Virus record (IMG/VR): IMGVR_UViG_3300010885_040629
Coordinates: 1 to 26,594 of that record
Strand: one strand, 5' to 3'
Source: a virus
DNA length: 26,594 nt
Part shown: positions 3,806 through 26,594 of the stretch, in pieces
Layout: each line of letters starts with the position of its first letter
Position numbering within the stretch: position 1 is the stretch's first letter
The notes under the pieces: model-generated
Told to the model about the DNA's origin: nothing
The model's database searches: none
The model's input: only the letters and a program-made list of their open reading frames with translations
Program-made: the position numbers and the translations under genes

Positions 3806-4202
3806 GCGTCTAAAAGACCCTGTTCTTTTGTTTTCCGATCTTGATATGGATCTTACTATAGATCCATTGACCAAGGATGTTTCTGCCATTACGGGCGAAA
3901 ATACGGTAAAACAAGCCTTGAAAAATCTATTGCAGTTCAAAAAATATGATAAGCCCTTTCATCCTGAAATCGATTCGGGAATTACGGATCTGTTGTTTGA
4001 AAATGCAAATTCGATGATTATGTTTCAAATGAAGCGAAAAATAACAGAAATGATTCGATCATATGAAAGCAGGATTAGAGGATTGCAAGTGGACATCGTT
4101 GATCTGTCGGATCAGAATTCATATCAGATAGATGTTCAGTTTCAGATACAAAACTCAGTACAGACCTATCGTGCCACGGTAATCGTGGAGAGGATCAGAT
4201 GA
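3795..4202 (+). CDS. gp25: Baseplate wedge protein gp25
   Basis: At 135 aa this matches T4 gp25 (about 132 aa) in length and pattern. It forms part of the wedge that links the hub to gp6 and nucleates sheath assembly next to the tube. Visible family features are the N-terminal D-L-D-M-D-L-T-I-D-P start, a helix with N-T-V-K-Q-A-L-K-N-L-L, the hallmark K-P-F-H-P-E-I-D-S-G-I-T-D-L-L-F-E (53-69), and the following helix ending Y-E-S-R-I-R-G-L, equivalent to the E-P-R-I region of relatives. Some databases label this fold lysozyme-like, but in baseplates it is structural. The start at 3795 has AAGGA at 3782-3786. The gene overlaps the preceding one by 11 bases and gp6 by 4 (ATGA), which implies coupled translation. 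Confidence 0.94.
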   Translation: MAIKRLKDPVLLFSDLDMDLTIDPLTKDVSAITGENTVKQALKNLLQFKKYDKPFHPEIDSGITDLLFENANSMIMFQMKRKITEMIRSYESRIRGLQVDIVDLSDQNSYQIDVQFQIQNSVQTYRATVIVERIR

Positions 4203-6118
4203 CTACTCCAAATCTTCCAATAGACAACCTAGATTTTGATTCGATCAAGACGAATCTAAAGTCATTTCTAAAGAGCCAAGACAAGTTCAAGGACTATGAC
4301 TTTGAAGGTTCGGGTATGAATATCCTCTTGGATCTTCTTGCCTACAACACCCACTATCAAGCATTTTACGCAAACATGGTAGCGAATGAGTCTTTCATCG
4401 ATTCCGCAGTCAAGCGTCAATCGGTTGTGTCACTTGCCAAACATCTCGGTTATACTCCTCGTTCCTATCGTGCGTCTACTGCCACGGTAGATATTGTATG
4501 GAACGCTCCTTCGACCACAAATAACACATATGAAATATTCAAGGCAAATGTTGCAAGAGGAGAAGTCTTTGTAAAACGAGGCGATACCTTTGTTGCTTCG
4601 GGCGGTGGTTCTGTATTTACCTTCCTTCCCATAGAAAATTATAAAGTCACTCTTGAAGGCAACAACTGCGTTGCGAGAAATGTAGAAATCAAAGAAGGCA
4701 GATTTCAAACCTTTACCTATGTTGTAAATGGTGCGGATCCATCACAAAGATTCATCATTCCCGAGACACAAATAGACACAAGCAGCCTTCGTGTTCGGGT
4801 TGTGAAATCCACGAAAGACACAACGGGTATTGTAGATGTTTGGACTTTGGCGACTGATATCAATTCATTGGATGGCTCTACTAATGCGTATTTCTTGCAG
4901 CAGTCCGAAGACGACAAATACGAAATTCTATTTGGCGATGGTATTGTTGGACGCAAGCCACAGGATGGAAATGCCATCCTAATCGAATATCTGGTTACTC
5001 GCGCTGATGATGCAAACGGAGTCCAAAATTTTCGCTATTCAGGAACAATTACCGCATCTGGAGTGACTCCATCAATAGTCCTAGCATCAGACGAATATGG
5101 CACTCCACAGGCTTCCTATGGCGGTGGTCAGCCCGAAGACATCGAATCAATTCGCTATTATGCTCCAAGAAACTATCAGTCTCAGGAGCGTACAGTAACC
5201 GCGGAAGATTACAAGACCATTCTGACCCGCGATTATACAACAGCCGATTCGATTCTCGTATGGGGTGGAGAGGAAAGCGATCCTCCTCAATATGGTAAGG
5301 TATTTGTTTCTATCAAGCCAAAGAATGCAACTACTCTTTCAACTCTTGAAAAATTGTCAATTCAGAAAACAATATTGCAGCGCAAGAACATCTTGGGAAT
5401 TACTCCCGAAGTAGTCGATCCCGATTACACCTATCTTGTTTTGAACATGACTTCTCGTTATGACTCCAATCTCACCAATATGTCTGCATCAGATCTTGAG
5501 ACTCTTTTGACTACAACTGTAAATGCATATATGACCGAAAGACTTGGTAAGTTCGGATTGAATTTCCGATTCTCAAAGTTTGTCACCTTTATGGACGGTA
5601 TCAATCAGAGCATTACAAGTACCGATGCAAATATCCGTCTGCAAAAGCGATTTCAGCCAGTAATTGGCAAATCGGGAGTATATACGATCAAATTCAATTT
5701 TGACAATGAGGTATATCATCCAGTTGATGGATATCCTCCTGTATTGACAAGCAGCGGATTTGGCTATTTGGATACAGATGGGGAGACCCAAGTAGATGCT
5801 TATATGGAAGATGATGGCTATGGAAATATCCGTATCTACAAGTTAGTTGGCTCCGACAAGGTGACTTTGGTCGAAAGAGCAGGAACTTTGAACTATGCCA
5901 ATGGCACGATCAGCCTGATCGATTTCAACCCTACCTATGTTCTGCCCGCATCAAGCACCGAAATTGCCTTGACTGTTGTTCCCCTAAACAAGGACATATT
6001 CACACGGCGAAATCAAATTCTTTTGATTGACAAGGAGAACTCCAACATAGCGGTTGTTCCTGACTCGTTCCGAACAGAAAGAAGACAGACATCAAGTCCG
6101 TTCCCATCGAATAGATAA
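4199..6118 (+). CDS. gp6: Baseplate wedge protein gp6
   Basis: This 639-aa protein is close in length to T4 gp6 (660 aa). In known baseplates it forms a dimer that makes the inner iris ring and binds gp7 and gp25. The N-terminus has the conserved Y-D-F-E-G-S-G-M-N-I-L-L-D-L-L-A-Y-N-T-H (33-52) and N-E-S-F-I-D-S-A (63-70), then K-H-L-G-Y-T-P-R-S-Y (81-90). A second conserved block at ~320-345 contains Y-A-P-R-N-Y-Q-S-Q-E-R-T-V-T-A-E-D-Y, typical of gp6/gpJ-type wedge proteins. The C-terminal quarter is beta-rich and ends with a Ser/Pro-rich tail. The start overlaps the gp25 stop (ATGA) and is preceded by GGAGAGGA at ~4187-4194. Confidence 0.94.
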   Translation: MTTPNLPIDNLDFDSIKTNLKSFLKSQDKFKDYDFEGSGMNILLDLLAYNTHYQAFYANMVANESFIDSAVKRQSVVSLAKHLGYTPRSYRASTATVDIVWNAPSTTNNTYEIFKANVARGEVFVKRGDTFVASGGGSVFTFLPIENYKVTLEGNNCVARNVEIKEGRFQTFTYVVNGADPSQRFIIPETQIDTSSLRVRVVKSTKDTTGIVDVWTLATDINSLDGSTNAYFLQQSEDDKYEILFGDGIVGRKPQDGNAILIEYLVTRADDANGVQNFRYSGTITASGVTPSIVLASDEYGTPQASYGGGQPEDIESIRYYAPRNYQSQERTVTAEDYKTILTRDYTTADSILVWGGEESDPPQYGKVFVSIKPKNATTLSTLEKLSIQKTILQRKNILGITPEVVDPDYTYLVLNMTSRYDSNLTNMSASDLETLLTTTVNAYMTERLGKFGLNFRFSKFVTFMDGINQSITSTDANIRLQKRFQPVIGKSGVYTIKFNFDNEVYHPVDGYPPVLTSSGFGYLDTDGETQVDAYMEDDGYGNIRIYKLVGSDKVTLVERAGTLNYANGTISLIDFNPTYVLPASSTEIALTVVPLNKDIFTRRNQILLIDKENSNIAVVPDSFRTERRQTSSPFPSNR

Positions 6119-6124
6119 TAGGTT

Positions 6125-9100
6125 ATGACAACAGGAAACGATAAAAATCAGTCCCCGATTATTGCTCATCGTCTGCCCGAATTCGTTCAGACAGACCATC
6201 CCACGATGGTTGCATTTGTACAAGCATATTATGAATGGTTAGATCAGCAAGCCGATCAGGGATATGTTAGAACTCCTGCTGCTCTAGATGGGTTATCCGA
6301 TGTAGACAAGACGATTGAGGAGTTTGTTGCTGCATTCAAGAAGGAGTATTTGCTAGGATTTCCCGAGGAGTTCGCCGTCAATAAGGAAGGCGATACGGTC
6401 GATGTTCGTCAACTTATCAAGAATATCAAGGAATTCTATCGTAACAAGGGAACCGAAAAAACCTACGAATTGCTGTTTCGCATTCTCTATGATACAACTG
6501 TAGAATTCTACTATCCCTCCCGAGACATTCTGCGGTTATCTGATGGCAAGTGGATTCAAAAGTTTTCTATTCGTTGCTCCAATGAACTAGGGACAAAGAT
6601 ATCCGAGTCAAGAGGGAAAACCATAGTTCAGCGATCTTCGGATAATACTATCGTTGCAAGTGGTACGGTAGTTGATGTCACCGTGTATCAAGTGGGAAAT
6701 CGTCAAGTTTCAGAATTGTTCTTGAACAACATCAATGGAAACTTTGCAGCAAATACAGATGTTCTATCAAATGTAAGTGGTATTGAATTTACCGACAATG
6801 AAGGAATCGTACATACCGAAAAATGGATTTATTCTGTCTTGTCTGCCGTATCCATTTCCTCAAAAGGATCGAATTACCGCAAGGGTGATCGAATCTTCTT
6901 TCAACCCGACATCATGCCATACCGGCAAAATCTGCTCAAATGGAGCAATGCTATTGGAAAAAAGGCAAGTCAAGGGGGAAATTGGGTCAATGATGATGAT
7001 GCCGCATTCGCATATTTAGGAAAAAGTGGTGGATGTTTTCCTACTTTGAATTCCGTTACTGCTCCTGATTTGTCAAATACGGGAACTCTTGTATTTGTGG
7101 ATGCCGGACCTAATTCCTATTCTGCATTGAGTAGTGAAGCCTATGGTGTCAATCAAGTCTGTCCAATTGCCTTTGATGGTTCTGACAAAATATTGACATT
7201 TAGTGTTTATGTCAAAGCGGCAGATCTTCGAGGAATACCATTAGCACAGACTGCTGTGAGTGTGCCTCCGTTATACTTAACCCAATCACAAATAGATCAT
7301 AATAGAAGAATAGCCCTTTGTGTAGATACAAGACAACCAGGAAGCCTATTTTTCACCAGATCAAAAATAAGAGTTGATGCTAAAGTAGGAACTACTCCTG
7401 CAAGATATATTGAAAGAAGTTATAGTAAAAATACTACTTCGCCATCAACTCATTCAATTCCGACTTATACCATAACGGATGTAGGAAATGGATGGGCGCG
7501 AATTACTATGACCGTCACAATTAGTAACGCAGATGCAAATACACAATGCACCTTCACAATTTATCCTATAGGAAAAGAAAATGCTATTTCTTATGCATGG
7601 ATTTATCTATGGGGAGCGCAATTGAATGAGGGATCTTCCGCAACTCCCTTTATTAATACCCAAAAAACTATCCTTACTGTTGCAGCAACAAATGATACAG
7701 GACAAGGTGCGATTGCAACAATCACGGATGTAGATTCAAATGGTGGAATTCTTAAGACGCGCATGGATAATTTTGGCATTGGATATGAAATTGCTCCAAC
7801 CTATACTTTTGATTCGGCATTTGGATCAGGTGCAGCATTAACCACTACTATTGGAACTATTTGTAGATATCCTGGATATTATTCAAGCAATGATGGTCGC
7901 TTGTCTACAAACAAAGTAATGCAAGATAATCATTACTATCAAAACTTTTCATATGTCCTGCTTACAGAAACTGTCATTGACCGCTATAAGGACATCTTGC
8001 GCCGAATCATCCATCCTGCGGGAATGGGTATGTTTGGAAAGGTGTCCATAAAGCGTTGTGCTACTGAGGATGTTACGACAGATACAATTGCGAAGAAAAC
8101 CGATTTGAATGCTATCGGCAATTATGCGCCATATACACTCTATACCTATAGGGATCTTGGCAGTCTGTTCTTCAACGGAAGAGCATTGCCATATGTTCCT
8201 AGTATTGATGATGCAACAATTACGGGCGCAGGAGGAAATCCAACAGGTCTTACGGGATTGACCTCTGCACACTATCAAGTTGCGTTTACGCCAAAAGGAA
8301 TTACTGGTCTAAAGATTTGGTTGGATGGCAAAACAATTACTGCAAATGCATCAAATACAAAAGGTGTGACCGCATGGGGGGATTCGAGTGGAAATGGCTA
8401 TACCGCTACTGCAAATATTTGGGGGACGCAACCAGGTTATCCTTATACACAAGATAAACCATATTACAATAAAATTCCAGCAGCATCTGTTATGGGAGGA
8501 TTACAACTTAGTGGATCTTCCATGACTGCATCCTCAATTACTTCGGGTTCTACTTCTGGTTGCGTATTGACAACGCCAAATTTAAGAGAAACCCTACAAC
8601 AACGCTCTTTGTTTGTTGCATTCACTCCCAATCCATTACCATCTACAGATATCACAACAAGCCAACAAAATACTTTAGTTGTCGGATTGATGCGCGGACT
8701 AACGGCTACTTCGAACGAAAGTGCTGAAAGTCTCTATACTCCTATGGGACAAAATCATCAATTGCATAGTATTTGTGTAGATTACAGCAGAAATATTGTA
8801 GACGGAAATGAAATCTCGCCAAGAATTGCGGCTTATTATGGAGTAGGAAATCACAAATATGGGCTATCTGCTGCTGCGGGAAATGGGGAATATGAATACA
8901 AAAAACTTGTATCCTACAATCCCGATGCTTTCCTTTCAAATCGGCTTGCTTTGATGAATAACAAAAGTTCAATCATATATTACAATTTCAAGGAACCTCT
9001 TGTTTCGCTTACTGCAAACAATCCAAATACCACAATAGTATCTTCTATATTTGCCGAAAGCGATCCTTCTTTGACTGCGGCTGCATATTCATATGCAACT

Positions 9101-11764
9101 GAAGTGAAGAAGTTTGACAAAAAAAGCAACAATGACCAACCTGATGCAAGATATTATCGCTATCAGAAGATGGCAGAATTTGTTGCAACAGAAAATGGAT
9201 CATATAATTTTAGCATGGATATGAAGACCGATTATGGCAATGCGGGTGCTACTGCAATGTATTGGAGGGCAATACTTACCAAGAATGATCAAATCATAGA
9301 ATCATCAACGCAGTCACAACCAGATGTTCCAAACCAAATAGCAGAGTGGGGTTGGTCTTCGATGAGTCGTGGATTAGGCACCCTCAATGTGCCGTATTAT
9401 GCACCCGAATATGATTCTAAAATTTATCAAACTCATAAAGTATCCGCAAAAGATGTCAAGGCTGGAGATGTCCTAAGAGTATGGATGACTCCATCGCGTA
9501 ATGCTGGAACAAAACCACTAAACAGCACTCTTCTCACCGCCAAGGCACTCTATACTAGAAATTTCACAGTCAACAAGATATACAGCCAAGGTAAGAATTT
9601 CTTGACTGTCAATGGTGTGGAAGTCGGGACTGCTTTGGGCAATTGGAATGGTAGTACGGGAGAGCAACGCCTCACAATCGGTCTAGGTCAGAACTATTTT
9701 AACGGTGTAGTTCACGAAGTACTTCTGTATGATCGCGCACTCACAAAGCAAGAACGAGAGACCATAGAGGCTTATCTCTATAAGCGTTGGACAGGAAATA
9801 TCATTCCTGTTAGAAATCACTCATGGTATTTGCCTATTGATACTGCTTCGTCTGGTATTTATCCTGCTCTACCAACAGAAGACGGATATACCGCAAATAC
9901 TGCAATCAACAGCGCATATGGCTACCCTTACTTCACGATCAACGAGAATCCAAACCTCTCGCTTGCTACAGAAGTGGAACCATATGCTGCTCGTATCCTT
10001 GATACGCAATATAGCGACTTCCTTGGCGGCGGTACAGGCTCGGCAGGATATTGGTCGGAGTGGGCAGAGGGTTCAACTGCAAATCGTCAGAATTGGGCAG
10101 CAAGTCTAACTGCCGCAGGAAGTCGCAACGCCCTTCTTAAGTATTCTACAAGTTCCGAATTCCGCAAGATCACAGCAGAGGCATTCTTGGATCGTAAGGT
10201 CGGATTGCAGTTTGATTGCAAGAATGAGGAGATTGTCGAACCATATATCCCCCAAGTGAAATTGACTTATTGCCTTGATTTTGTAAATAGCACAGTCTAC
10301 TCTAATGGTACGATCATTTTCAACTATACGATTCTGAATTCAGAGAACATGAATTATTGGATCACGGATCGAATGGAAGTAGAAGTAAGCGATGGGCGAA
10401 AGTTGTATCGCTATCGCCCCGAAGCCGCAAAATGGAAGCAGACCGTATCTCCTCACGGCGAATTTGGTCAATTCAAGATCTCTGGATTTACTTCCGAAGG
10501 TATTGCCGCAAAACAATATACCGTAACCTTTAGACTATTGAATTACTATGGCAAAGTCATTTCTGGATCCGAACTCTCGGTTTCATTCTCGCACCAATAT
10601 GCAGGTCTTTCAGCAGAAACCAACAGTCTAACAACTTGCACAGAGATATCGACTTATACCGATCCGAATGCAGGACAGACAACTCCATCATATAGATTCG
10701 GAACTACTTTGGCAACGGGAGTTCCTAGCGGAGAAGATATTGGAGATGATCCCGACATTTGGAAATGGTATTGGGATGATAGAATCAAAGTGCGTAGCGA
10801 TGATTGGTTCTGGCAATTGGGCAAAGACGATACTATGCCGCTATTCGAAGGTGGCAATTATTGCGATCCTCTTGGTCTAAAGACATTCTGGAAACCTGGT
10901 TCGGCACCGTTCTCTATGCCTAAAGACGATCCGCTAAATCCGAACAGGCCAGGATGGCCAATATTGGGTGGTGGTCAACGGGGTCAAAATTATCGTTTGC
11001 CCACAGAGATTCCGCCGCTAGGTGTAGAACCAAAATATGTAAATGATAATGATGGATCGGAAGTTTATTACTGGAGTGGACATTGGTGGATTCGCACAAG
11101 AACAAGAGATCCATTGACCGGTAACCTGATAATCACATGGCGATTTAAGATTCCAATGTCTAATCCTGATGATTGGACTTTTGGAAAGAGTGTAGGAAAA
11201 GATGGCGAACTAGAGGAAGATACATTTGATGATGCCACTAATGGTAATAATGCTATTGAATATGGTAATCTTTGGACAAAATTTGTTCCTTGTTACGGGG
11301 TTCCTCTTTGCTTTGAGCAGACGAGTGATGGTGGATACCGAGTCAAGCCTGATACTTTTGGAGAAGACATTCCACAATTCCCCTTATGGGGGAAACCATC
11401 CGTATACCCACCAGGATGGTTTCCAGGTCAGATAAATCCATACAATGTACCAAATGATGATCCGTCAGCACCATTCCCTGGTGGTTGGAGAAAAACAAAT
11501 GTTCCGGCAGGAAAAGACAAAGATCGAGATCCGTATTACGGAAGAGGATGGGATCCTTTCTTTGGACCGTTCTATTTGGATCCAAATAGAGGATTAAGAC
11601 CATATGGATATGGTGGAGTTGATGTTGTTGATGCACCGGATGACTTTTTCTCGGATCGCAAACTTGAACATCCACCTTGCAAGAATGGTGGAAATAGTCC
11701 TGGCATAGAACCACCCAAACCACCAACAGCCCAAGGTCTTGACGACCGTGTTCCAGGATTATGA
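6125..11764 (+). CDS. Giant gp7/Tri2-like baseplate wedge protein with inserted carbohydrate-binding and lectin-like domains
   Basis: This is an 1879-aa protein. Residues ~10-265 and ~515-645 look like the wedge core: F-V-Q-A-Y-Y-E-W-L-D (31-40), then Y-R-N-K-G-T-E-K-T-Y (105-114), the R-x-K-G-T signature shared with P2 gpI/Tri2-type proteins, and later P-G-Y-Y-S-S-N-D-G-R-L-S plus I-I-H-P-A-G-M-G-M-F-G (628-638). Its place after gp6 fits a gp7 counterpart that pairs with the gp6 dimer. An apparent insertion (~268-515) resembles carbohydrate-binding modules of phage tail proteins. A concanavalin/LamG-like module spans ~724-1222 and itself seems interrupted (~922-1155). Residues ~1230-1500 are beta-rich, and the C-terminal ~380 residues are rich in Pro, Gly, Asp and Trp. 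The ribosome site before the ATG is weak (TAATAGG), so coupling to gp6 is likely. T4 gp7 is ~1030 aa; the excess is mostly the inserted modules and C-terminal tail. Confidence 0.75.
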   Translation: MTTGNDKNQSPIIAHRLPEFVQTDHPTMVAFVQAYYEWLDQQADQGYVRTPAALDGLSDVDKTIEEFVAAFKKEYLLGFPEEFAVNKEGDTVDVRQLIKNIKEFYRNKGTEKTYELLFRILYDTTVEFYYPSRDILRLSDGKWIQKFSIRCSNELGTKISESRGKTIVQRSSDNTIVASGTVVDVTVYQVGNRQVSELFLNNINGNFAANTDVLSNVSGIEFTDNEGIVHTEKWIYSVLSAVSISSKGSNYRKGDRIFFQPDIMPYRQNLLKWSNAIGKKASQGGNWVNDDDAAFAYLGKSGGCFPTLNSVTAPDLSNTGTLVFVDAGPNSYSALSSEAYGVNQVCPIAFDGSDKILTFSVYVKAADLRGIPLAQTAVSVPPLYLTQSQIDHNRRIALCVDTRQPGSLFFTRSKIRVDAKVGTTPARYIERSYSKNTTSPSTHSIPTYTITDVGNGWARITMTVTISNADANTQCTFTIYPIGKENAISYAWIYLWGAQLNEGSSATPFINTQKTILTVAATNDTGQGAIATITDVDSNGGILKTRMDNFGIGYEIAPTYTFDSAFGSGAALTTTIGTICRYPGYYSSNDGRLSTNKVMQDNHYYQNFSYVLLTETVIDRYKDILRRIIHPAGMGMFGKVSIKRCATEDVTTDTIAKKTDLNAIGNYAPYTLYTYRDLGSLFFNGRALPYVPSIDDATITGAGGNPTGLTGLTSAHYQVAFTPKGITGLKIWLDGKTITANASNTKGVTAWGDSSGNGYTATANIWGTQPGYPYTQDKPYYNKIPAASVMGGLQLSGSSMTASSITSGSTSGCVLTTPNLRETLQQRSLFVAFTPNPLPSTDITTSQQNTLVVGLMRGLTATSNESAESLYTPMGQNHQLHSICVDYSRNIVDGNEISPRIAAYYGVGNHKYGLSAAAGNGEYEYKKLVSYNPDAFLSNRLALMNNKSSIIYYNFKEPLVSLTANNPNTTIVSSIFAESDPSLTAAAYSYATEVKKFDKKSNNDQPDARYYRYQKMAEFVATENGSYNFSMDMKTDYGNAGATAMYWRAILTKNDQIIESSTQSQPDVPNQIAEWGWSSMSRGLGTLNVPYYAPEYDSKIYQTHKVSAKDVKAGDVLRVWMTPSRNAGTKPLNSTLLTAKALYTRNFTVNKIYSQGKNFLTVNGVEVGTALGNWNGSTGEQRLTIGLGQNYFNGVVHEVLLYDRALTKQERETIEAYLYKRWTGNIIPVRNHSWYLPIDTASSGIYPALPTEDGYTANTAINSAYGYPYFTINENPNLSLATEVEPYAARILDTQYSDFLGGGTGSAGYWSEWAEGSTANRQNWAASLTAAGSRNALLKYSTSSEFRKITAEAFLDRKVGLQFDCKNEEIVEPYIPQVKLTYCLDFVNSTVYSNGTIIFNYTILNSENMNYWITDRMEVEVSDGRKLYRYRPEAAKWKQTVSPHGEFGQFKISGFTSEGIAAKQYTVTFRLLNYYGKVISGSELSVSFSHQYAGLSAETNSLTTCTEISTYTDPNAGQTTPSYRFGTTLATGVPSGEDIGDDPDIWKWYWDDRIKVRSDDWFWQLGKDDTMPLFEGGNYCDPLGLKTFWKPGSAPFSMPKDDPLNPNRPGWPILGGGQRGQNYRLPTEIPPLGVEPKYVNDNDGSEVYYWSGHWWIRTRTRDPLTGNLIITWRFKIPMSNPDDWTFGKSVGKDGELEEDTFDDATNGNNAIEYGNLWTKFVPCYGVPLCFEQTSDGGYRVKPDTFGEDIPQFPLWGKPSVYPPGWFPGQINPYNVPNDDPSAPFPGGWRKTNVPAGKDKDRDPYYGRGWDPFFGPFYLDPNRGLRPYGYGGVDVVDAPDDFFSDRKLEHPPCKNGGNSPGIEPPKPPTAQGLDDRVPGL
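6926..7669 (+). other. Inserted carbohydrate-binding-module-like domain within the gp7-like gene
   Basis: This covers residues ~268-515. It begins N-L-L-K-W-S-N-A-I-G with a nearby G-G-N-W-V-N, and ends G-N-G-W-A-R-I-T-M-T-V ... Y-L-W-G-A-Q-L-N-E-G-S-S-A-T-P-F-I. That start/end pair is a recurring signature of beta-sandwich modules found in many phage tail and capsid surface proteins. It splits a core strand region that stops at K-G-D-R-I-F-F and appears to resume at T-G-Q-G-A-I-A-T-I-T-D-V. Seven of the nine arginines inside are AGA, against two of fourteen in the preceding 267 codons. Boundaries are approximate and the sugar specificity is unknown. Confidence 0.7.
8294..9790 (+). other. Concanavalin A/LamG-like lectin module, interrupted by a second insertion, within the gp7-like gene
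   Basis: This covers residues ~724-1222. The opening G-I-T-G-L-K-I-W-L-D-G (725-735) with W-G-D-S-S-G-N-G-Y (751-759), and the closing F-N-G-V-V-H-E-V-L-L-Y-D-R-A-L-T-K-Q-E-R (1192-1211) followed by Y-L-Y-K-R-W, are hallmarks of the LamG/concanavalin-like sandwich used for glycan or peptide binding. Between them, roughly residues 922-1155 (8888-9589) look like a separate beta-rich unit (N-G-S-Y-N-F-S-M-D-M-K, later V-K-A-G-D-V-L-R-V-W-M). The lectin thus seems split by another domain. The lectin call is good; the inner domain is inferred from the unusual spacing. Confidence 0.65.
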
Positions 11765-11799: not shown

Positions 11800-13287
11800 A
11801 TGGCAAACAACATCAAGCAAATCAAAGCGGCAATTGAAGCGAACTTGGCAAAAATTCGGGATGCATATTATGCAGCGTTGAATAGCAACTCTTCCGCTGA
11901 AGGGATTGAAACCGCAAGAGCAAACTATGCTACTGCCTTGAAGTCGGCGCAATTGAATGCGTTGACATTGCTGAATGCACAGACTCCATTCACAGAAGCA
12001 GAATACACTACTCGAAATCTCGCTCTAGAATTGGAAATATCAATTGATACTATTAATGAAGACACCAGATACGATACAAGATCTGCACAGGAAGTATCAA
12101 AAAAAGATTGTATGGATCTTTTTAATAAGTATATCAGCACTATTAAAAAAATGAGAGATTTGCTTACTGATGATAATATAGATAAATTAATAGAAATATA
12201 TTATTACATCTATGGAATAGATCCAGGATTTCCAGAAAGTCTAGGATTGGGTTTCAGATTAGGATCGAATCCTGTAAATTGTTGGCTTGCTTGCGAAATG
12301 AACGAATTCGTCAAAGCACATCCAAATACACCCAATGGCTTGGGCGGTATATTCAGAGAGCGAAGAGGTGGGTTGTTTGGCGGCGGTGAGGATTGTTGGC
12401 AGTATATACGAGCGCCTGGTCAGGATTTAACTATACCAATACGAAATCCGGAAAACAAAAATATCCCACCTTTGCCGTGGAAAATTCCTTCGTTTCCTCC
12501 GGAATTATTGCCAGATTGGATACCAGCGCCAGGAGATATAGATTGGTCAGACCCAAAGAAAGTGGGAGAATGGCTTGAGAAAATGAGAAAATTTTTGAAA
12601 GAAGTTCAAAATAATCCTTCGGGCAATAACCCCAATCCTTCTTGCAATCAACTATACAAAGAAGCAGTAAATTGGCTTGCAGATAAAGTGGGTATAGTTT
12701 TGCAGTTTTTATCTTTAGGAAAAGAACTTCAAGACCTGTATGAGCAAATGCGACTCGGACCATGTAACGAGATACTCAGATTAGATGTCGTGTTTAGAGA
12801 CAGGCAGATTGGTAGATTTGATGATCCTCTGAAATTTGGTGAATGGTTATGGAAATTACATAAAAAGGAACTTCAACCTATGCCCAATTTGGATCCTCTA
12901 GTATCTCTACTTTCGGAGACAAGAATACCTTCTGATACTGCCACCCTGCTAAATGAGTGGGAAAAAAATTGTGAAAAAGAAAATCCCAATCGATATAAAG
13001 TTGCATTAACCGAATATGAAGCATGGGCAGCAAAGTCTCCTGAAGAAAGAAACTTCGTTCCTCCAATCAAAGGACTATTTCCAGTATTAAATACTTCAGA
13101 CTTTACCGATGAATTTGCCTTTATGTATTTGGCAGCAATGTCCTGGTACGGTCTACTAAAGCAAGAAAGCGACACAATATACAGATTAACTTATCAAAAT
13201 CTCACAGCATATGCTAATGAATGCTCTGCCATGCTTTCTCTATACAATGTCCCTGAAGTTACTGTAGATCTGGAAGAAGAGAAATAG
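11800..13287 (+). CDS. Unknown 495-aa protein between gp7-like and gp8 genes
   Basis: I do not recognise this protein. The N-terminal ~90 residues look helical and coiled-coil prone (Ala/Leu/Glu-rich, A-N-N-I-K-Q-I-K-A-A-I-E-A-N-L). A second helical region runs to ~140. It is followed by a Gly/Arg-rich patch, a Pro-rich segment (~213-250, repeated P-P, P-W, P-G), and a mostly helical C-terminal half with several Trp and Cys residues. No membrane segment, signal peptide or catalytic motif is seen. The start has AAGGA at 11790-11794. Base composition is visibly more AT-rich than the neighbours: 15 of 22 arginines are AGA/AGG and none are CGT or CGC, while gp8 next door mainly uses CGT. It lies in the same operon direction between two wedge genes, so a virion role is plausible but unproven. 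It may be a later acquisition. Confidence 0.75.
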   Translation: MANNIKQIKAAIEANLAKIRDAYYAALNSNSSAEGIETARANYATALKSAQLNALTLLNAQTPFTEAEYTTRNLALELEISIDTINEDTRYDTRSAQEVSKKDCMDLFNKYISTIKKMRDLLTDDNIDKLIEIYYYIYGIDPGFPESLGLGFRLGSNPVNCWLACEMNEFVKAHPNTPNGLGGIFRERRGGLFGGGEDCWQYIRAPGQDLTIPIRNPENKNIPPLPWKIPSFPPELLPDWIPAPGDIDWSDPKKVGEWLEKMRKFLKEVQNNPSGNNPNPSCNQLYKEAVNWLADKVGIVLQFLSLGKELQDLYEQMRLGPCNEILRLDVVFRDRQIGRFDDPLKFGEWLWKLHKKELQPMPNLDPLVSLLSETRIPSDTATLLNEWEKNCEKENPNRYKVALTEYEAWAAKSPEERNFVPPIKGLFPVLNTSDFTDEFAFMYLAAMSWYGLLKQESDTIYRLTYQNLTAYANECSAMLSLYNVPEVTVDLEEEK

Positions 13288-13349: not shown

Positions 13350-15695
13350 ATGGCTAATGTCTGCGACAAGTTCCGTCAGAATTTCAAGCAAACCTTCATA
13401 GATCACTTTGCTATGATGTTTGGCAACCTGTCCACAGACAAGTGGTTTCTTTCCATTGGTAAGCCTCTACCTTGGCTGTCTACATCGGGAGAAATTGACA
13501 ATTTGCCACCCGCTGCTGCGGATACGGATCAAACAGAATCTGAGTTTTGGCAAAATGTCCTTGCTCACAAGAGAATTACCGAAGACGATGTTTCTATCGT
13601 AGTTCCTCGTTATGATTGGACAATCGGGACAGTTTATAGCCCATATCGTCCAACAATCGAACTCTTCAATCCCGACAATCCATATATCTTCTATGTTTTG
13701 GTGGACGAAGAACGAGTCTATAAGTGCATTGACAACAACTATGGCGCACCTTCAACAGTTGCACCAACTCATACCGATACCGATGTCAAATTGCTTTCCG
13801 ATGGCTATCGTTGGAAGTTTATGTACTCCATCACGGAAAGCCGCCGTAAGTTTCTTCTCAAGGGTGGGCTAAAGACAAGTGGAACTCTGCGTCCAGGTTA
13901 TATGCCGGTTGAAAATATCGAATCACTAGGCATTAACGATGAGCGATACTTGCAGTTTGCGGTTCAGAATGCGGGAGTAGATGGGGAAGTAGTCTTCATT
14001 TACTTCCTACCCGAATATTCCAACTATCTGATTTCTGATCGTTGCATTTTTTCTTCAACTAATAATGTTATCGTATCCCCTTCTGTTTCGGTAGGTGGAT
14101 TGACTGCAACTTTATATTCCCCATCCTTTGTTCCCGTTCAAGATTACTACAACAATATGGTGTTGTCTATCGATTCGGGACAAGGCAAGGGACAACGAAG
14201 AATCATCAGCAGTTATACACCAGGCACAACAAGCGCAAATGTAACTATCGAAGTCACCAATCCATTTACTGTCGAGTTGCTTCCCAATTCTTCAACCTTT
14301 TCGATTGTTCCTAATGTAATCCTTGATGGTGATGGGTCTGCAAACAACAATACATTGGATCCATTACGCACGATAGCCGATGTATCCGTTCTATTCGATT
14401 CTACCACTATAACTGGTGGATATCGTTATGTCGATTCCTTCGAAATGCTTGATACGGGTATGGATTACTCGTATGCAAACCTTAAGGTAATTGCAGGATT
14501 GACTTTTGCATCCAATATCCCATCATCTCTTCTCACAGATTTTTCAAATGCAGCAATACCGATCATTTCTCCCCAAGGCGGTCACGGATCAAAACCTGTA
14601 GCCGAACTTGGTGGCAACTCTCTGATGATAGTGAAAAAATACAGCGGAAATGAAAACGGAAAGGTCACTTCACAAAATGAGTTCCGTCAATTTGGCATCA
14701 TCAAGAATCCCGATCTTGCCCAACCTCAAATCAGAGTTTCTACGGTTCAGGCAGGAAATGCAAATTCATTCACAGTAGGTTCTATTGTAGAACAAGGGGT
14801 GACTGGAGGATTTGCAGGAGCAACCGGTACTGTAGTTTCGTGGAGACCAGGATTAACGGGCTATACGGGAACATCTGAATTGATTCTTACCAATGTGATT
14901 GGAAACTTTACTTCGGGTAAAGGAGTTGCTATTGGATCAACCTTGGATGTTTTCGATGTTGCCTCACGCACCCGCGCAGGAACAGATGGACGAGATCTTC
15001 TTGTTCTGACAGTCACTCCAACAATTGCCACTACTTTTTCTGCAATCGCAAACGAGTTTCCGCAGGGAATGAATGCCGTTGGAGTCGGGAATGCTGCACT
15101 AGACATTGAATTCTCTGGTTCAAATGGCAGAATCTACCGTTGGGATGCAATATCCGGTCTCAATAATCAAGGCAAGATCTATTTGGAAAATGCTCATGGT
15201 ACTTTTGATATCGGTGAGACTGTTGGCGTAAGAGACCGCTATATGAATTTCTATTCAGGTCTTACGGGAATTGCAAAAATTGTCGAGAAGACAACGGTGA
15301 TAGAGGGCATTCCCGATACTTATAGCCAAGTCTACAAATTTGTATTGAATCCCGCCGGAGGAGATACCTTTACCTCATCTTCGTTTGTTTTGGACAATAC
15401 TGTATATCTGTATAGTGGTTTATCTCAGATTGCTACAGGCAAAGTAATCAATTGGAATACCTCCGGAGCAACAGGAGATCTATCTGTCATCATCACATTA
15501 GGCTCCGTTGTGGTAGGAAACACCATCTCATATACAAATGCTTCGGGAATTGCTGCTAGTGCCTTGATTTCGGCTATCAGTCAATTCCCCGACTTCAAAT
15601 TTAGATCAGGACAAGTTCAATACATACAGAATATAAGACCTGTTGTTCGTTCAGATAGTCAAGAGGAAGAGATCAAACTCATAATTGGGCTTTGA
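13350..15695 (+). CDS. gp8: Baseplate wedge protein gp8
   Basis: The N-terminal ~200 residues show the gp8 pattern of T4-like phages: F-G-N-L-S-T-D-K-W-F-L-S-I-G-K-P-L-P-W (24-42), A-H-K-R-I-T-E-D-D-V-S-I-V-V-P-R-Y-D-W (72-90), V-Y-K-C-I-D-N-N-Y-G-A-P-S (123-135) and L-S-D-G-Y-R-W-K-F-M-Y (149-159). In T4, gp8 forms a dimer in the outer wedge bound to gp7 and gp10. The rest (~210-781) is Gly/Thr/Ser-rich beta structure with repeated short strands, making the protein about twice the length of T4 gp8 (334 aa). The extension may carry extra surface domains. The start has AGAGGA upstream, and the gene ends 12 bases before the DUF4815 gene. Confidence 0.88.
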   Translation: MANVCDKFRQNFKQTFIDHFAMMFGNLSTDKWFLSIGKPLPWLSTSGEIDNLPPAAADTDQTESEFWQNVLAHKRITEDDVSIVVPRYDWTIGTVYSPYRPTIELFNPDNPYIFYVLVDEERVYKCIDNNYGAPSTVAPTHTDTDVKLLSDGYRWKFMYSITESRRKFLLKGGLKTSGTLRPGYMPVENIESLGINDERYLQFAVQNAGVDGEVVFIYFLPEYSNYLISDRCIFSSTNNVIVSPSVSVGGLTATLYSPSFVPVQDYYNNMVLSIDSGQGKGQRRIISSYTPGTTSANVTIEVTNPFTVELLPNSSTFSIVPNVILDGDGSANNNTLDPLRTIADVSVLFDSTTITGGYRYVDSFEMLDTGMDYSYANLKVIAGLTFASNIPSSLLTDFSNAAIPIISPQGGHGSKPVAELGGNSLMIVKKYSGNENGKVTSQNEFRQFGIIKNPDLAQPQIRVSTVQAGNANSFTVGSIVEQGVTGGFAGATGTVVSWRPGLTGYTGTSELILTNVIGNFTSGKGVAIGSTLDVFDVASRTRAGTDGRDLLVLTVTPTIATTFSAIANEFPQGMNAVGVGNAALDIEFSGSNGRIYRWDAISGLNNQGKIYLENAHGTFDIGETVGVRDRYMNFYSGLTGIAKIVEKTTVIEGIPDTYSQVYKFVLNPAGGDTFTSSSFVLDNTVYLYSGLSQIATGKVINWNTSGATGDLSVIITLGSVVVGNTISYTNASGIAASALISAISQFPDFKFRSGQVQYIQNIRPVVRSDSQEEEIKLIIGL

Positions 15696-25490: not shown

Positions 25491-25529
25491 CAGTTTGATA
25501 GCACAGTTTCTTTAAATATGGAGAATACA

Positions 25530-26594
25530 ATGGTTACTACGATTGAACAGACCACACCCACCGCAGTTGTATCTGCACCCACAAACAATCCATCAAAGAC
25601 AAAGACGATCACTCTATGCATGATCGTCAAGGATGAGGCGCGTGTTATTGAACGCTGCCTTGCTTCTGTTCTTCCAATCATCGATAACTGGGTCATTGTT
25701 GATACTGGTTCAACTGATGGCACACAGGACAAGATTCGCAAGTTCTTTGAGAATGTCGGTATTCCTGGCAAACTCTATGAGCGTCCTTGGAAGGACTTCG
25801 GACATAACCGCAGCGAGGCTCTTGAACTTGCCAGCACCGAAGGCGACTATGCATACATGATTGATGCCGATGAGGTTCTTGTTTTTGAACCAGGTTTTGA
25901 TCCCGAACAGTTCAAGGCAAGTCTGACTGCCGATCTCTACAACATCTTTGCAGAATACGGTGGCACCAAGTATCACCGTCCGCAGATGACAAGCACCAAG
26001 AAGAAGTTCTACTACCGTGGCATTCTCCATGAATATGTTGATTGTCAGGAGGAGATCAAGACCCGCGATTTTGCCCGTGGTTTCAAGAACACCCCCATTC
26101 AAGATGGTAATCGTTCAAGTCAACCAATGAAGTATGAACGCGATGCAGAACGCTTTGAGGAAGCCCTCAAGGGCGAAGTTGACCCAAAGGACTTCAACCG
26201 TTATCACTTCTATCTTGCACAGTCCTACCGTGACTCGCAGCAATGGGAGAAGGCTCTTGCTGCTTATATGAAGCGGGCGGAACTTGGTGGATGGAACGAA
26301 GAAGTCTTCTATTCCCTTTATCAGGCAGGTCGCATCATGGAAGTTCTGAACAAGAACATCGATGAGATCATCAAAGTCTATTTCAATGCTTATCAGTCTG
26401 CTCCTTATCGTGCAGAAAGCCTGTGGGCAGCGGCTCGTCTATGCCGCCTGAACATTCGTTTTGATCAGGCATATACCTTTGCCAAGCAAGGTCTCAAGTG
26501 CCGTTGCCCCGAAGGCGCACTCTTCATTGCTGCTCCGATCTATGAGTGGATGTTGCTTGATGAGTTTGCAATTGCTGCTTATTGGGCAGGACAC
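25530..26594 (+). CDS. Family 2 glycosyltransferase with TPR-like C-terminal region (3' end outside window)
   Basis: The frame is open from ATG 25530 (GGAGA at 25520-25524) to the window end, giving 355 codons with no stop. After a ~25-residue Thr/Pro-rich leader comes a GT-A fold: L-C-M-I-V-K-D-E-A (29-37), V-I-V-D-T-G-S-T-D-G-T (55-65), and the metal-binding D-x-D at 112-114 in Y-M-I-D-A-D-E. R-G-I-L-H-E-Y-V (163-170) follows, a G-x-x-H-E element seen in related GT2 enzymes. Residues ~222-355 are helix pairs in a TPR-like pattern (Y-H-F-Y-L-A-Q-S-Y-R, then W-E-K-A-L-A-A-Y). Such enzymes transfer a sugar from a nucleotide sugar to a protein, lipid or glycan. Donor and acceptor cannot be read here. 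Arginine codons are mostly CGT/CGC, so the gene uses codons like the structural genes. Placement after fiber genes suggests virion or host-surface glycosylation, which is inference. Confidence 0.9.
   Translation, partial: MVTTIEQTTPTAVVSAPTNNPSKTKTITLCMIVKDEARVIERCLASVLPIIDNWVIVDTGSTDGTQDKIRKFFENVGIPGKLYERPWKDFGHNRSEALELASTEGDYAYMIDADEVLVFEPGFDPEQFKASLTADLYNIFAEYGGTKYHRPQMTSTKKKFYYRGILHEYVDCQEEIKTRDFARGFKNTPIQDGNRSSQPMKYERDAERFEEALKGEVDPKDFNRYHFYLAQSYRDSQQWEKALAAYMKRAELGGWNEEVFYSLYQAGRIMEVLNKNIDEIIKVYFNAYQSAPYRAESLWAAARLCRLNIRFDQAYTFAKQGLKCRCPEGALFIAAPIYEWMLLDEFAIAAYWAGH

Follow-up and report, generated by a model that had tools for sequence, protein, structure and literature searches.

The open reading frame at positions 6125 to 11764 of the window, the complete 26.6 kb virus record analysed here, encodes what sequence comparison identifies as a gp7-like baseplate wedge protein. 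We think it probable, at roughly 0.6, that this protein consists of a gp7 core carrying exchangeable, exposed modules that bind glycans and serve in adhesion. Its parts are as follows.

6125–11764, + strand: gp7-like baseplate wedge protein, 1879 aa, ATG start, directly 3' of a gp6-like gene (4199–6118)
6125–6910, + strand: wedge core, part 1, residues 1–262, with RNKGT (106) and a beta domain at 141–260 (pLDDT ~95 over most of it); PF23786 and PHROG wedge matches, profile match to T4 gp7
6911–7678, + strand: site-1 insertion, residues 263–518, with the module proper, of a tail-fibre-type jelly-roll/CBM-like kind, at 268–515 (6926–7669); clean absence in relatives, family profile
7679–8251, + strand: wedge core, part 2, residues 519–709, with DNHYYQNFSYV and HPAGM (630); comparison with relatives, strands at 527–587 with pLDDT mostly >90
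8270–9049, + strand: LamG-like unit, part 1, approximately residues 716–975, right border uncertain (921 in the earlier note); PHROGs 11772 and 10356, alignment with uninterrupted homologues
9050–9583, + strand: nested beta-rich unit, approximately residues 976–1153; separate AlphaFold beta domain (pLDDT ~50–76), Foldseek matches to CBM and TNF jelly rolls
9584–9832, + strand: LamG-like unit, part 2, residues 1154–1236; Laminin_G_3 below cut-off, PHROGs 11772 and 10356
9842–10639, + strand: post-core region, residues 1240–1505, common to relatives that do not have the LamG unit, with site 3 near 1312; comparison with relatives
10640–11761, + strand: C-terminal W/P/G/D-rich tail, approximately residues 1506–1879; found in the window and in relative L001 only

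The wedge core and its neighbourhood

The earlier note had described a gp7-like wedge core marked by an R-x-K-G-T signature and an H-P-A-G-M block. Both motifs are present, at residues 106 and 630, and profile searches, structural comparison and the adjoining gp6-like gene all bear out the identity. The Pfam family PF23786 (Baseplate_wedge) matches the reading frame with 53.1 bits against a cut-off of 27, several wedge PHROGs match it as well, and the Pfam, PHROG, PDB profile and Foldseek results define the core as residues 1–257 and 517–660. In the PDB, the core profile finds T4 gp7 (E = 2e-5 and 2e-4). The AlphaFold model of residues 1–708, which is of moderate quality with a mean pLDDT of only 64.5, has Pa193 gp46, T4 gp7 (entries 5iv5, 5hx2 and 9f4a) and E217 gp45 as its best Foldseek matches.

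The gene order in the window is gp25-like, gp6-like, gp7-like, a 495-aa ORF and gp8-like; the 495-aa ORF (11800–13287) matches no Pfam or PHROG family. The likeness to T4 gp7 extends from the wedge core to the position after gp6, but the two proteins differ in layout. The match falls at T4 gp7 residues 732–766, with the additional T4 domains before it, whereas in the window protein the core is N-terminal and the additional domains are inserted within it and follow it. The core is that of a gp7-like protein and not that of a Dit.

Elsewhere in the window, residues 459–534 of the gp8-like protein (13350–15695) weakly match positions 145–219 of the profile for the beta domain of the wedge core, which might reflect a shared fold or a duplication. 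Next to the tail genes, the contig ends in a glycosyltransferase family 2-like ORF (25518–26594). One relative, L212:2524–5574 (Pelagibacter phage HTVC008M gp055), is labelled 'head closure Hc2', yet it is a gp7-like wedge by its position after gp6 and by profile; PHROG 3465 bears the same name.

The site-1 insertion and its module family

Comparison with relatives shows that the first insertion is real, as the core closes cleanly without residues 263–518. The gap between the core halves is 10 residues or fewer in 57 of the 81 distinct IMG/VR relatives that have both halves, and exceeds 60 aa in 18; in the nearest relatives with an empty site (~50–70% identical), the equivalent of window residue 259–261 is joined straight to that of 517–519. 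The earlier note had proposed an insertion of 268–515 and held that the lack of homologues without it would count against the idea. Such homologues make up the 57 empty cases, and the family profile locates the module at residues 268–516. In the AlphaFold model of residues 1–708, the strands flanking the site (256–260 and 527–536) are part of beta segments in which most residues have pLDDT above 90. The insert itself is modelled apart from the core at lower confidence, and on this basis the insertion appears to sit in a beta-hairpin turn of the core. The segments on either side of the module (264–308 and 505–522) have pLDDT below 50 and are probably flexible. Other relatives carry different inserts at the same turn, of ~145 aa in L015–L019, ~418 aa in L101 (L101:7959–11108) and ~743 aa in L124 (L124:3435–7052), the last of which contains a module of the insertion-1 type.

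A profile built from 32 copies of the module matches the RcGTA head fibre Rcc01080 over the full module length (E = 4e-47), E217 gp45 and Pa193 gp46 ('baseplate wedge 2'; E ~1e-26), and a tail fibre, gp17. By profile, the site-1 module belongs to a tail-fibre module family (PHROG 5939 / E217 gp45 domain), whose remaining copies are mostly in tail-type ORFs and tail-protein PHROGs, often in tandem, and the landmarks W, GNGW-R and WGAQ are retained in copies less than 40% identical. Relatives of both the module and the LamG unit were detected through alignments rather than single-sequence queries, as single-sequence scans of viral contigs with either one gave no matches. Neither has a second copy elsewhere in the window by profile search.

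The earlier note had labelled this module carbohydrate-binding-like, and the resemblance stands, although no recognised CAZy family lies behind it. CBM_4_9 (PF02018) is weakly matched in just 5 of the 32 family members, and the window's own copy matches no Pfam family at E ≤ 0.1, CBM_4_9 included; 'CBM-like' is therefore used here for resemblance rather than membership, the module being of a phage tail-fibre and head-fibre type. The family also occurs in a 388-aa distal-tail-like protein from IMG/VR (L170:4389–5552), where it lies ahead of the second Dit part in the manner of an evolved Dit. Syn1 gp217 has a module copy as well, yet is not a wedge, and was rejected as a wedge relative.

A probably split LamG-like unit after the core

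The LamG-like unit that follows the core is likely interrupted by another beta-rich unit, as its sequence relationships suggest. PHROGs 11772 and 10356 match first its N-terminal part (~710–772) and then its C-terminal part (~1179–1223), with ~250–285 more residues between the matched parts in the window protein than in the profiles, and bacterial homologues of the unit are uninterrupted at ~215–230 aa. The ordered matches, the excess length and the uninterrupted homologues together support a split lectin. Laminin_G_3 (PF13385) matches the C-terminal part only (1156–1210), at 22.3–24.7 bits against a cut-off of 27.6, and the PDB holds no sequence match for the unit.

The AlphaFold model of residues 709–1509 is poor (mean pLDDT 38.1, from an alignment of only 8 sequences) and says nothing on the joining of the lectin parts. 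It contains a separate beta unit at ~984–1153 (pLDDT ~50–76), which returns CBM and TNF-type jelly rolls in Foldseek. Of the nested lectin that the earlier note had drawn, the split of the LamG-like unit is retained, while the left border of the inner unit moves from 922 to ~976–984. The LamG-like unit as a whole (~716–1236) is missing in 21 relatives that retain both flanks, and so homologues that do not have it exist. The spacing from the core to the next domain is 65–114 residues in proteins that do not have the unit versus 552–556 in those with the LamG unit alone. Among the relatives searched, none has this LamG without the inner unit.

Module exchange and its proposed role

Comparison with related phages shows that the modules are inserted at fixed sites, where they have been gained, lost or swapped between close relatives. 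Copies are found at site 1 in the window, L001, L006 and L193, at site 2, the junction just after the core, in L006, L007 and L193, and at site 3, a loop further on near residue 1312, in L193. In a module tree whose bootstrap is not fully settled, the site-1 copies cluster (97/77), as do the site-2 and site-3 copies with each other (100/99). A recent event is seen in L002 and L007. Nucleotide identity between them is 96.6–97.9% along nearly the whole of the ~17 kb compared, and the one large difference is the site-2 module, which accounts for ~597 bp in frame. In L001 and L006, core half 2 is 99.3% identical and core half 1 is 86.9% identical, while the site-1 modules share only 38.9%, and DNA identity ends abruptly just inside both conserved module ends. 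The most plausible reading is that recombination replaced the module; edges of identity as sharp as these make very rapid divergence the less likely course. Sequence comparison thus shows what the core is, where the insertions lie, to which family the module belongs and that modules have recently been gained, lost and replaced.

We propose that the protein would be the gp7 component of a (gp6)2–gp7 wedge in a T4-like myophage, an assignment to the assembly that follows gene order, with accessory beta-sandwich modules at permissive sites in the core hairpin turn (site 1), at the post-core junction (site 2) and, in a relative, in a later loop (site 3). The modules would protrude from the six wedges and bind host-surface glycans, providing adhesion that supplements the tail fibres, with the core still doing its normal work in assembly and contraction. 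Recombination between phages would swap modules and so alter the adhesion repertoire without the baseplate being rebuilt.

The strongest precedent for auxiliary adhesion is Vp4 Gp119 (BW3), a wedge protein with CBMs that its close homologue, Deep-Blue Gp177, lacks; the GFP-tagged protein binds cells and the CBM-less homologue does not (PMC11406892). Unlike the window protein, Gp119 is a third wedge protein from the Herelleviridae with a CBM16-type fold, and the likeness is one of description rather than of sequence comparison. The homologous module of RcGTA Rcc01080 offers a second parallel, as the fluorescent head fibre shows stronger binding to cells that have a capsule (PMC10218006), although there it decorates a head and is not inserted into a baseplate core; the module domain is unresolved in the RcGTA cryo-EM model (PMC7296036). 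Evolved Dits of siphophages are likewise structural tail-tip proteins with an inserted sugar-binding module, though a Dit is not a contractile-tail wedge. Sugar binding by the wedge modules is our inference from their homologues.

The solved wedges of Pseudomonas phages are the nearest in architecture. E217 gp45 and Pa193 gp46 (PB1 gp45, DUF2612) are present in one copy per wedge and have a domain of the same family at ~206–391 with wedge sequence on both sides, but they have a single module and no LamG unit. We do not claim that the insertion site is the same as in E217, because hhalign does not link the core of PB1/E217 gp45 to that of the window protein. These gp7-equivalents, together with the cell binding of Vp4 Gp119, qualify the earlier note's premise that such a wedge protein is normally structural.

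The main alternative, which we consider unlikely, is that the modules are themselves structural and dock tail fibres or baseplate neighbours with no sugar bound. E217 gp45 and Pa193 gp46 do anchor fibres and contain the family domain, but the anchoring is via a different segment, a fibre-attachment loop (76–123/80–113); in XM1, the gp7 ortholog has flexible parts in spike binding (PMC10457771). A docking surface would be expected to co-vary with its partner, and yet the module sequence is replaced beside a 99%-identical core half. The near-isogenic pair L002 and L007 also disfavours docking, with the module absent from one of two ~97%-identical phages over 17 kb and no other large change.

It is rather improbable that the modules are neutral passengers, tolerated at permissive turns and spread by recombination between abundant tail-fibre genes, with no selected function. 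The variety of inserts at the site-1 turn (L101, L124, L015–L019) would fit this, as would the fact that most relatives manage without a module. Random insertion would not be expected to place one fold family at three sites, however, and the reading frames are intact across hundreds of codons, with W, GNGW-R and WGAQ kept at below 40% identity.

We regard as a little more doubtful still an extension of adhesion in which the wedge is a modular host-recognition platform whose glycan-binding modules pass from phage to phage and between three fixed sites, with the core-hairpin module coupling binding to wedge rearrangement so that the surface is sensed without tail fibres. The sensing role suggested in the earlier note, in which glycan binding by the module pulls on the core and helps to trigger sheath contraction, is very improbable, for although site 1 lies within a confident core beta domain, and a proposed model for E217 has the pull of the fibres passed on by the gp7-equivalent to the gp6-equivalent (PMC10329688), the low-confidence segments beside the module (pLDDT <50) are probably flexible.

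CBM-bearing wedges and evolved Dits are already published, and a solved wedge already contains this domain, for which we found no functional interpretation. As far as we have found, what is new is the shared insertion site, the occurrence of one module family at three sites, and its recent gain, loss and swapping in T4-like phages. These findings carry the idea of CBM-bearing wedges beyond the Bacillus myophages for which it has so far been reported, into environmental phages of the T4-like kind, and link it to the solved domain of Pseudomonas phage wedges. The pair L002 and L007 is a natural experiment that would make module function testable. Exchange of modules probably helps the phage to hold on to changing hosts. 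Host range in T4-like phages is usually credited to the tail fibres; as probable adhesion modules come, go and are exchanged in a structural wedge protein even between near-identical phages, wedge genes should be weighed together with fibres in host-range prediction.
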